This document shows positions 19,893 to 24,789 of a stretch of 64,000 bases of DNA, piece after piece. The notes under the pieces are model-generated. The model did no database searches. It worked only from the letters and a program-made list of their open reading frames with translations, and had not been told where the DNA came from. The number at the start of each line of letters is the position of its first letter. Positions within the stretch are counted from its first letter, which is position 1. Position numbers and translations under genes: made by a program. Origin of the DNA: Pacificibacter maritimus (lineage in GTDB: Bacteria; Pseudomonadota; Alphaproteobacteria; Rhodobacterales; Rhodobacteraceae); contig NZ_RKQK01000001.1 in NCBI RefSeq assembly GCF_003814915.1, positions 1,194,031 to 1,258,030 of the forward strand, read 5' to 3'.

Positions 19893-19967
19893 GGTCCCTT
19901 CGTCTATCGGTTAGGACGCCAGGTTTTCAACCTGGAAAGAGGGGTTCAATTCCCCTAGGGACTGCCA
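19893..19967 (+). tRNA. tRNA-Glu (anticodon TTC), copy 1
   Basis: 75-base tRNA with encoded CCA. Acceptor GGTCCCT pairs with AGGGACT with a G-T first pair; the D arm contains GGTTAGGA. The anticodon stem CCAGG/CCTGG encloses loop TTTTCAA with anticodon TTC. The T arm is GGGG-TTCAATT-CCCC. An identical copy lies 312 bases downstream. Confidence 0.97.
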
Positions 19968-20204: not shown

Positions 20205-20279
20205 GGTCCCTTCGTCTATCGGTTAGGACGCCAGGTTTTCAACCTGGAAAGAGGGGTTCAATTCCCCTAGGGACTGCCA
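20205..20279 (+). tRNA. tRNA-Glu (anticodon TTC), copy 2
   Basis: Identical in all 75 bases to the first tRNA-Glu. The 30 bases just upstream of both copies are also alike (TAAACACC then CTCACG then CAA before the tRNA), which points to a tandem duplication of tRNA plus leader rather than two independent genes. Confidence 0.97.
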
Positions 20280-20498: not shown

Positions 20499-21521
20499 CT
20501 ATCTGCGTGCGGCAGCATTTGGCAAATCTTGGTCCGCCAAAGTCGGCATCCCCGCAACATAGAAATTTGCGCAGGCCCGTCCTTGGTGTTTTGAAGCATA
20601 TAGCGCCGTATCCGCATTGTGCATCATTTGCTCTGCATCAATTTGGTCATATTGCTCAGTGGTTGTGATCCCCACCGATCCTGAAATACGGCAAACTGTA
20701 TCATTGAAAGGAACAGGGATTTCAAGCTGCGCGATGATACGTTCGGCCACCTTCATCAACTGATCCGCATCCGTCATCTTATGCATCACCACAATGAACT
20801 CATCCCCGCCGACACGGGCCACCAAATCTTCGGCTCGTGTTTCATCGACCAAGACTTTGGCAACATTTTGCAAAACGACATCCCCCGCCGCGTGACCAAG
20901 CGTGTCGTTCACGTCTTTGAAGTAATCCAGATCAATGTGCATCAAAGCAAAAGGCACACCTGCGCGGATCATTCTGCCCAGCACATGGTCCATGGCACGG
21001 CGGTTTTTCAAACCTGTAAGCGTATCGGTATAGGCTTGTTCTTCGGCTGCGACCTTTGCCCCTTGCAGGCGCGTATTTAACTGTTTGGTTTCTTCCAAAA
21101 CAGCTGATTTGGCTTCCACAAGATAGAGCATTTCGATCGCCAGATCTGTCGCTGCGAAATCCCCAGCCGTCAGCCGATAATCATGAACAGCATCCACAAC
21201 AGAAATGCCAAACGACAGGTTCAACAACATATCCGTGCTATTGGCCATGGGAGTGGCAATCCCTTTAAGCGGCGTCGATACCCCTGACTTGAATGTCATG
21301 TAGAGTTTCTTATCATCTGGAATGATCGTATTGGCAGATTTTCGACCGTCATCACGCAGATCAAATACGTCGAAAAAATTGTGGCCCAGCATCGCTGATT
21401 CGCCGCGCAATTTGCACAGGGTAGGCCCGATTTTTGTGATGATGCCCTGCGCATCCAAAATCAAATGCATCGGCATCAAACGGTCCAGCGCGCTGGCCTC
21501 AAGTTGGGTGACCAAAGCCAT
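20499..21521 (-). CDS. Diguanylate cyclase with N-terminal heme-NO-binding-associated (HNOBA-like) domain
   Basis: Likely synthesises c-di-GMP, partnered with the H-NOX protein just upstream. The N-terminal half (about residues 10-140) resembles the PAS-like HNOBA domain that accompanies H-NOX in guanylate cyclases, including TPLKGIATPM and ATDLAIEMLYLVEAKSAV, which leads into a coiled-coil linker. The GGDEF domain starts at TDTLTGLKNRRAMD and has an intact active site VGGDEF preceded by R-A-E-D, the RxxD inhibitory site. The H-NOX stop overlaps a GTG at 21527 as GTGA; I chose the ATG two codons later. Signal transfer from H-NOX is inferred from pairing. Confidence 0.88.
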   Translation of the reverse strand: MALVTQLEASALDRLMPMHLILDAQGIITKIGPTLCKLRGESAMLGHNFFDVFDLRDDGRKSANTIIPDDKKLYMTFKSGVSTPLKGIATPMANSTDMLLNLSFGISVVDAVHDYRLTAGDFAATDLAIEMLYLVEAKSAVLEETKQLNTRLQGAKVAAEEQAYTDTLTGLKNRRAMDHVLGRMIRAGVPFALMHIDLDYFKDVNDTLGHAAGDVVLQNVAKVLVDETRAEDLVARVGGDEFIVVMHKMTDADQLMKVAERIIAQLEIPVPFNDTVCRISGSVGITTTEQYDQIDAEQMMHNADTALYASKHQGRACANFYVAGMPTLADQDLPNAAARR

Positions 21522-21523
21522 CG

Positions 21524-22114
21524 TCACACCGCCTTCGCGGAGAGGTCAAAACTGCGCCCTTCGGAAAAGGCTTCTTCCAACAGTTGAATATTAATCACCT
21601 CTTCACCTGAATCGCGCCATCCTTGATGTTCCAAAAAGACCAAAGCGCCATAATCATCAGCCATGGCGCGCATGACGCCGAGCATCGCATAGCCAAATCC
21701 TGGCATCGAATGCTGGCAGGTCAAAGTATGACTGCCATCTTCATTTTCAAAAATGTTTAATTTGGGCACTTCAAGATCAGGCAAGGCGAGACGAGACCGC
21801 CCCTCGATTTCATTTAAGGAAAACATAAATTCGGTAAATTCATCACCGCCAAAACGCAACAATCTGCGAATGGCTTCGACATTGGGATGAGACACCAAAT
21901 AGGTGCCCAGATCTTCCAGCATGGCATCGACAGGTTTTTCCAAACTGCGCGCAGCCGCACTGAGCAACCGAATGGTGACCCCATCTGGATAGCTTAGCAT
22001 CGCTTCAAAGCTGTCTGATCCAAAATCTGTTTGTTCAGCAACCGAGGCCCAAATTTCTGGACCATATGTGTCGCGGACAAAGCACTGAATCGCGCGATTT
22101 ATCATACCATGCAT
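21524..22114 (-). CDS. H-NOX (heme-NO/oxygen binding) domain protein lacking the heme-ligand histidine
   Basis: Stand-alone H-NOX fold of 196 aa beginning MHGMINRAIQCFVRDTYG, the usual start of bacterial H-NOX proteins. Two hallmark sites are altered. The family block LDxLHxxxK that supplies the proximal heme histidine reads SLNEIEGRSR here, putting glutamate (E104, codon GAG) where histidine is expected near position 102-105. The YxSxR motif that holds the heme propionates reads QHSMP (about 135-139). The protein may therefore be heme-free or ligate heme differently. It is translationally coupled to a GGDEF partner. The alignment was done by eye; fold assignment is firm, loss of heme is inferred. 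Confidence 0.85.
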   Translation of the reverse strand: MHGMINRAIQCFVRDTYGPEIWASVAEQTDFGSDSFEAMLSYPDGVTIRLLSAAARSLEKPVDAMLEDLGTYLVSHPNVEAIRRLLRFGGDEFTEFMFSLNEIEGRSRLALPDLEVPKLNIFENEDGSHTLTCQHSMPGFGYAMLGVMRAMADDYGALVFLEHQGWRDSGEEVINIQLLEEAFSEGRSFDLSAKAV

Positions 22115-23397: not shown

Positions 23398-24789
23398 ATG
23401 GCAGGACGCATCCTTATCGTCGACAATGTTCCGACGAACCGCATCATATTAAAGGTCAAATTGTCCTCTGCATTTTACGAGGTCATTCAGGCTGCCTCAG
23501 GGCGCGATGCAATGATGCGTGCCAAACAAGACCAGCCCGATATCATCATCCTTGATACCAATCTGGGCGATATGACCGCGCATGAGGCCTGCGCGCAACT
23601 CAAAGCCGATCCCATCACCTGCGACATTCCTGTTTTGATCGCCACGCCCGCTGCGGATACAGAAGCCAAAATAGCAGCACTCAAAGCGGGCGCTGACGAA
23701 TTTTTAACCAAACCCATCGACGAACTCACACTCACAGCAAGAGTGCGCGCCTTGTTGCGGGCGCGCTCAACAACGCATGAATTGCGCCGACGCAATGAAA
23801 CTGCGCGCACCCTAGGCTTTGCCGAAGCCCCCGTTAATTTCACAATGCCTGGAAAGATCGTCTTGGTTGGGCGCAACCCAGAAGATGCCATGACATGGCG
23901 CGCGGGCTTGCGCGGCTTGGTGCAAGACACGATCGAAATCTCCCAAGCGGATCGTGTGATTGAAAAAATCGCCGCCGATGACGCAGCAGATGTCTATTTG
24001 ATCTCGGCCGATATCATGGGCAGCACAGGGGGCTTGAGTTTGATTTCAGACATCAGAGCACGGGCCAACACCCGCTTTGCGGGCATTGTTGTGGTGCATG
24101 GGGCGCAAGACCGCAAAGAGGCGATTATGGCGCTGGATCTGGGCGCCAATGATATTATCACGCGCGGCGCTGATCCCGAAGAAATGGCCCTGCGCTTGCG
24201 CAGTCAAATGCGCAGCAAGAAAGAAGCAGACGCCCTGCGCAGCACCATTGACGAAGGCCTGCGCCTCGCGATGGTCGATCCTTTGACGGGCCTTTACAAT
24301 CGCCGCTACGCCCTGCCCCATATCGCGCAGATCGCACAGGCTTCCAACCAAGCAGGGCAAAATTTCGCGCTGATGCTGTTGGACTTGGACCGCTTCAAGC
24401 GGATCAATGACACCTATGGCCACGCGGTTGGCGATGAGGTGCTCAAAGAAGTGGCACTGCGGATGCAAAAATGCCTGCGCAGCGTTGATCTTGTGGCGCG
24501 CTACGGCGGCGAAGAATTTCTGATCTGTTTGCCGCAAATTTCACTGCGCGATGCCCGTATCACTGCCGAAAGGATCAGAGCTGCGATCTGCGATACCGCC
24601 GTGACCGTGACAGCGCAGGGAGACCCTGTGATGAGCTCTGTTTCAATCGGCTTGGCCATGGGGGGGGCGCCTGATGGCACGCCCGTGCAACATGACACCC
24701 AAGCGCTTTTGGACATTGCCGACCGCGCTTTATATGATGCCAAAGCCGAAGGGCGCAATCAGGTTACACTTGGACCCTTTGCTGCGTAA
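23398..24789 (+). CDS. pleD: PleD-type response regulator diguanylate cyclase
   Basis: c-di-GMP synthase controlling polar development in Alphaproteobacteria, 463 aa with the order receiver-receiver-GGDEF. The first receiver (1-120) has ILIVDN and phospho-acceptor D53 (IILDTNLGD) with the TKPID lysine. The second (about 155-270) keeps the fold but lacks a clear acceptor aspartate, as in the adaptor receiver of Caulobacter PleD. The GGDEF domain has ARYGGEEF at 370-374 and the inhibitory RxxD as R-S-V-D at 361-364. DivK, its operon partner in Caulobacter, is not adjacent. Followed by a strong bidirectional hairpin. Confidence 0.93.
   Translation: MAGRILIVDNVPTNRIILKVKLSSAFYEVIQAASGRDAMMRAKQDQPDIIILDTNLGDMTAHEACAQLKADPITCDIPVLIATPAADTEAKIAALKAGADEFLTKPIDELTLTARVRALLRARSTTHELRRRNETARTLGFAEAPVNFTMPGKIVLVGRNPEDAMTWRAGLRGLVQDTIEISQADRVIEKIAADDAADVYLISADIMGSTGGLSLISDIRARANTRFAGIVVVHGAQDRKEAIMALDLGANDIITRGADPEEMALRLRSQMRSKKEADALRSTIDEGLRLAMVDPLTGLYNRRYALPHIAQIAQASNQAGQNFALMLLDLDRFKRINDTYGHAVGDEVLKEVALRMQKCLRSVDLVARYGGEEFLICLPQISLRDARITAERIRAAICDTAVTVTAQGDPVMSSVSIGLAMGGAPDGTPVQHDTQALLDIADRALYDAKAEGRNQVTLGPFAA

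Follow-up and report, generated by a model that had tools for sequence, protein, structure and literature searches.

The window, by which we mean the whole 64,000-nucleotide stretch of Pacificibacter maritimus DNA that was analysed, contains a gene for a protein of the H-NOX fold and, beside it, a gene for a diguanylate cyclase (Table 1). The H-NOX gene lies on the minus strand, a detail absent from the original prediction; its translation has no internal stops, and it is the sole HNOB match in the host genome. The protein matches Pfam HNOB (PF07700) over residues 2-157 (E=5.3e-23; 82.2 bits against a cut-off of 25.5), the same profile is matched by 37 of 37 relatives, and the phmmer alignment with Nostoc Alr2278 spans residues 1-172. 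An AlphaFold2 model built on 37 aligned sequences (pLDDT 86.9) has seven helices and four strands. Its best PDB match is the Nostoc H-NOX 2o09 (E 6.9e-14; TM 0.80 by query length and 0.86 by target length), and sGC beta chains are also among the top solved-structure matches. The window protein is thus confirmed as a full-length H-NOX by sequence and fold, in keeping with the overall H-NOX pattern first recognised in it.

Table 1. Coordinates of the H-NOX gene, its cyclase partner and their diagnostic positions in the window.
Feature	Coordinates	Strand	Remarks
H-NOX (HNOB) fold gene, without proximal histidine	21524..22114	-	196 aa
His2	22109..22111	-	sole highly conserved histidine of the clade (94%); candidate alternative ligand
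Gly70, hinge glycine 1	21905..21907	-	134/134 members
Glu104, codon GAG	21803..21805	-	proximal heme-ligand position, His105 in Nostoc H-NOX
C133-Q-H135-S-M137, replacing Y-x-S-x-R	21704..21718	-	aligned to Nostoc Y-Q-S-T-R
Gly146, hinge glycine 2	21677..21679	-	134/134 members
Partner diguanylate cyclase	20499..21527	-	HNOBA/PAS-like domain, coiled-coil helix, GGDEF with I-site RxxD
GGDEF active-site motif	20796..20810	-	preceded closely in the protein by the RAED inhibitory-site motif

The residue at the proximal heme-ligand position is glutamate. phmmer aligns Glu104 with the histidine of LDNLHARVG in Nostoc Alr2278, a motif-based reading agrees, and the AlphaFold2 model places the residue within a predicted helix (93-110). 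With 134 members compared, neither alignment nor motif reading puts another histidine of the protein at this position, and the claim that the ligand is gone is upheld. So is the claim that YxSxR has been replaced, with C-Q-H-S-M as the phmmer-aligned substitute. The same glutamate occurs in three Pacificibacter genomes at 83-85% identity, and is therefore not the product of chance or sequencing error. The only cysteines of the protein are C11 and C133. Gly70 and Gly146 are equated by alignment with the published hinge on helices D and G, about which the subdomains of canonical H-NOX proteins rotate when NO breaks the Fe-His bond (PMC8196705).

The partner matches GGDEF strongly (Pfam 3.3e-45) and HNOBA at the Pfam cut-off (4.9e-05), and its model (pLDDT 89.7) comprises a PAS-like domain, a 40-residue helix (124-163) and the GGDEF domain. 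The active-site motif is present and the catalytic columns are invariant in 36 partners, which bears out the original description of the cyclase as intact. If the cyclase starts at a GTG, the two genes overlap by 4 bp; if it starts at an ATG, it begins 2 bp past the H-NOX stop. A GGDEF gene is located directly downstream in 133 of 135 loci, with a 4-bp overlap in 91. The host genome holds five GGDEF proteins, the partner cyclase included. A search for natural fusions of H-NOX and cyclase found none, the long open frames being stop-to-stop lengths. The domains of sGC are ordered H-NOX, HNOBA and coiled coil; the window pair resembles this arrangement, but with a different cyclase.

Two tRNA-Glu (TTC) genes, at 19893-19967 and 20205-20279 and about 240 bp apart, lie between recJ and the diguanylate cyclase gene. 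A PleD-like response regulator (23398-24789), which combines receiver domains with a GGEEF motif, is divergent from the H-NOX neighbourhood and close to it. In Phaeobacter sp. G2, a plasmid of 120 kb carries the pair together with DUF3572 and HAD genes that resemble those flanking the pair in the window, and the neighbourhood has thus been kept roughly as a block.

An HNOB protein is encoded in 299 of 397 Rhodobacteraceae genomes, a set that contains close to one genome per genus. The retrieved loci fall into two classes, canonical H-NOX and a cyclase-linked H-NOX that includes the window protein; because score and similarity guided the choice of sequences, the proportions given here are not a census. 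The proximal histidine is present in all 33 canonical proteins. Among 134 non-redundant cyclase-linked members, position 104 is most often proline (87 members, 65%), followed by histidine (14), glutamate (8), and alanine, arginine and glutamine (5 each), with Ser, Asn, Val, Gly, Asp, Tyr, Thr and Lys in ones and twos; motif-based reading and alignment agree on the site in 134 of 134. YxSxR is found in none of the 134, versus 31 of 33 canonical proteins. The original prediction treated the glutamate as a meaningful feature, and this mixture of residues does not sustain that. Its conservation among homologues holds in the Pacificibacter/Celeribacter clade, where 8 of 9 members have it, and fails elsewhere in the set, where none does; as a conserved new ligand, Glu104 is ruled out beyond that clade. 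In one search, covering 289 alphaproteobacterial genomes, strong relatives were confined to Rhodobacteraceae. Clear Rhodobacteraceae versions of the gene also turn up in records labelled Enemella evansiae and Maritalea mobilis, whose names or assemblies may be wrong.

The neighbours of site 104 are nearly fixed (F96 99%, S99 94%, L100 97%, L103 93%, R106 96%), as are most of RRLLRFGG (83-90), LED (66-68), ADDYG (152-156) and Pro117, and Leu73 is conserved in the clade. By entropy, site 104 ranks 112th of 192 sites, 135 ranks 157th and 137 ranks 186th, and columns 133, 135 and 137 of the old YxSxR region are all variable. Pairwise dN/dS between the window gene and its nearest relative is about 0.05, with dS near saturation, and ranges from 0.03 to 0.23 in the remaining pairs where it is computable. 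These data support an intact gene pair under strong purifying selection. Tight constraint around a variable site 104 implies that the protein has been kept and its ligand has not.

On a tree built with column 104 left out, the cyclase-linked clade requires at least 9 changes between histidine and other residues and at least 28 residue changes at the site. Histidine occupies the site in the outgroup and in several branches that split off early, including D. shibae. This suggests that histidine is ancestral and was lost many times, on a tree with weak support and with parsimony counts that do not separate loss from regain. Ser8 was considered as a residue co-varying with His104 (13 of 14 versus 29 of 120) and was set aside, as the tree holds too few independent pairs.

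The missing ligand is real, and H-NOX proteins lacking the proximal histidine are already on record for two relatives, P. denitrificans and R. sphaeroides (PMC5588039). A P. denitrificans hnoX mutant forms less biofilm, has no BapA and consumes NO faster, a phenotype from which its authors propose that H-NOX inhibits DgcA, although they still model their His-less protein as NO-responsive (PMC5588039). The hnoX-dgcA pair (Pden_3719/3720) resembles that of the window in its overlapping H-NOX and GGDEF genes and in the absence of both proximal histidine and YxSxR. However, it is only about 40% identical, it has proline instead of glutamate, as read at site 104 in the homologue from strain HAMBI_2443, and its NO response was inferred and not measured on the protein.

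In Dinoroseobacter shibae, H-NOX is reported to bind NO and, when NO-bound, to inhibit Dgc1 (PMC7232146, PMC8846402). The genome, recognised from 3 kb of sequence identical to plasmid pDSHI01, encodes a single H-NOX with histidine at the site (LDDLHDR) and no YxSxR. This protein and its neighbour (Dshi_2815 and Dgc1) belong to the same clade and operon type as the window pair and share the loss of YxSxR, but D. shibae keeps the proximal histidine where the window protein has glutamate. The NO result is therefore not transferable to the window protein; the reported NO binding without YxSxR means that loss of that motif alone need not abolish heme binding. In R. capsulatus, where H-NOX is treated as an NO sensor, the cyclase gene influences motility and the production of gene transfer agents (PMC7232146). 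Its pair, rcc02630/rcc02629, matches the window pair in clade and operon, but the H-NOX has glutamine instead of glutamate, and no histidine at 2 or 76. The D. shibae and R. capsulatus proteins, jointly discussed as NO sensors, differ at the ligand itself (His versus Gln).

Other systems offer partial parallels. In Legionella and Shewanella a c-di-GMP enzyme gene also adjoins H-NOX, which controls the enzyme; there, however, the partner contains both GGDEF and EAL domains and the H-NOX heme is bound through histidine. The sGC alpha pseudo-H-NOX is a heme-free H-NOX fold in a cyclase complex, and lacks the histidine, YxSxR or both, depending on species. Its pocket is filled by an N-terminal extension, whereas an in-frame stop 6 codons 5' of the window H-NOX start makes such an extension impossible and excludes a pocket filled in the sGC alpha manner.

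We consider it somewhat probable (roughly 55%) that the two genes form a c-di-GMP module in which H-NOX acts as a pseudo-sensor, regulating the cyclase without a His-ligated heme. In support are the variable ligand site amid fixed neighbours, the loss of YxSxR, the invariant hinge, the operon in 133 of 135 loci, the evidence of selection, the repeated changes at the site on the tree, the members with no histidine at 2, 76 or 104, and the phenotype of the P. denitrificans mutant. Such a pseudo-sensor would keep the fold, the hinge and the fixed residues, which probably face the partner, but would no longer have heme on a histidine. We think it most likely that it docks onto the HNOBA/PAS-coiled-coil region of the cyclase and, once bound, holds cyclase activity down. 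In canonical H-NOX, breakage of the Fe-His bond by NO frees the proximal helix. With no histidine the helix would never be tethered, so the window H-NOX at rest probably already has the conformation that NO brings about elsewhere; we infer both this NO-like resting state and the absence of heme. That state reportedly inhibits the cyclase in D. shibae, and the window H-NOX may rest in the same one. Activity might be switched by the amount of H-NOX, by some other ligand occupying the former pocket or by an additional protein. Several points weigh against this reading: His2, Leu73 and Pro117 are conserved, so that the pocket may persist; the His-less H-NOX of P. denitrificans is still modelled by its authors as NO-responsive; D. 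shibae H-NOX reportedly binds NO with YxSxR gone, albeit with its histidine in place; and the P. denitrificans phenotype comes from a distant homologue (about 40% identical).

It may instead be that heme is still bound through His2, Glu104, water or the pocket alone, and that NO is still sensed. The invariance of Pro117 and the conservation of His2, a position held by Lys or Tyr in canonical proteins, favour this, and published work treats the His-less relatives from P. denitrificans and R. capsulatus as sensors of NO. We nevertheless regard it as unlikely: YxSxR has been lost as well, Glu104 is unconserved beyond its own small clade, and positions 2, 76 and 104 all lack histidine in five members, including that of R. 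capsulatus. His2 is also kept equally in members that retain His104 (12 of 14), and so did not arise as a replacement. A different small ligand in the old heme pocket, such as a hydrophobic metabolite or another tetrapyrrole, would fit the conserved fold and its many conserved positions, and heme-mimetic drugs do occupy H-NOX pockets in PDB entries; but no new conserved polar set has appeared at the old pocket motifs, where columns 133, 135 and 137 vary, and the idea is improbable.

The original prediction held that the pair might sense something other than heme-bound gas. To that extent it stands, in that canonical His-ligated heme sensing is unlikely, but the redox signal it offered as an example fails in its known form. 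A heme-free redox function has been described for V. cholerae H-NOX (PMC7108781), and a zinc-cysteine switch of this type would be the precedent for a heme-free redox sensor in the window. The cysteine columns of canonical relatives (144 and 151) are, however, empty in 134 of 134 members, 11 members contain no cysteine at all and the window protein has only its two, neither in those columns; such a switch is rejected, and a redox sensor of this kind is scarcely credible. Decay of the gene, or a passive role as a folding partner with no signalling function, is highly improbable. The selection data already go most of the way to refuting decay, and the operon kept in 133 of 135 loci and the mutant phenotype of P. 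denitrificans also speak against this reading. Its one point of support is a same-clade relative (L087, G274:C24) with histidine at the site (LHER), whose gene is split by an in-frame stop; this may be a pseudogene or a sequence error.

The pseudo-sensor reading can be extended to the whole clade. Tentatively, an NO sensor may have been turned repeatedly into a heme-free cyclase subunit, with a few NO sensors of the D. shibae type remaining and the His-less form locked in an NO-like, inhibiting state. If so, one module exists in NO-sensing and non-sensing forms side by side.

What is new here is the class-wide picture, in which the ligand is variable, YxSxR is gone, the hinge and operon are fixed, and His-bearing and His-less proteins occur side by side; no earlier account of it was found in the searchable literature. 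Annotations call these proteins heme NO-binding and papers cite them as NO sensors, for example in R. capsulatus, yet most of the clade is without the defining ligand. Because the module occurs naturally both with and without the histidine, heme-free control of a cyclase by H-NOX is directly testable.
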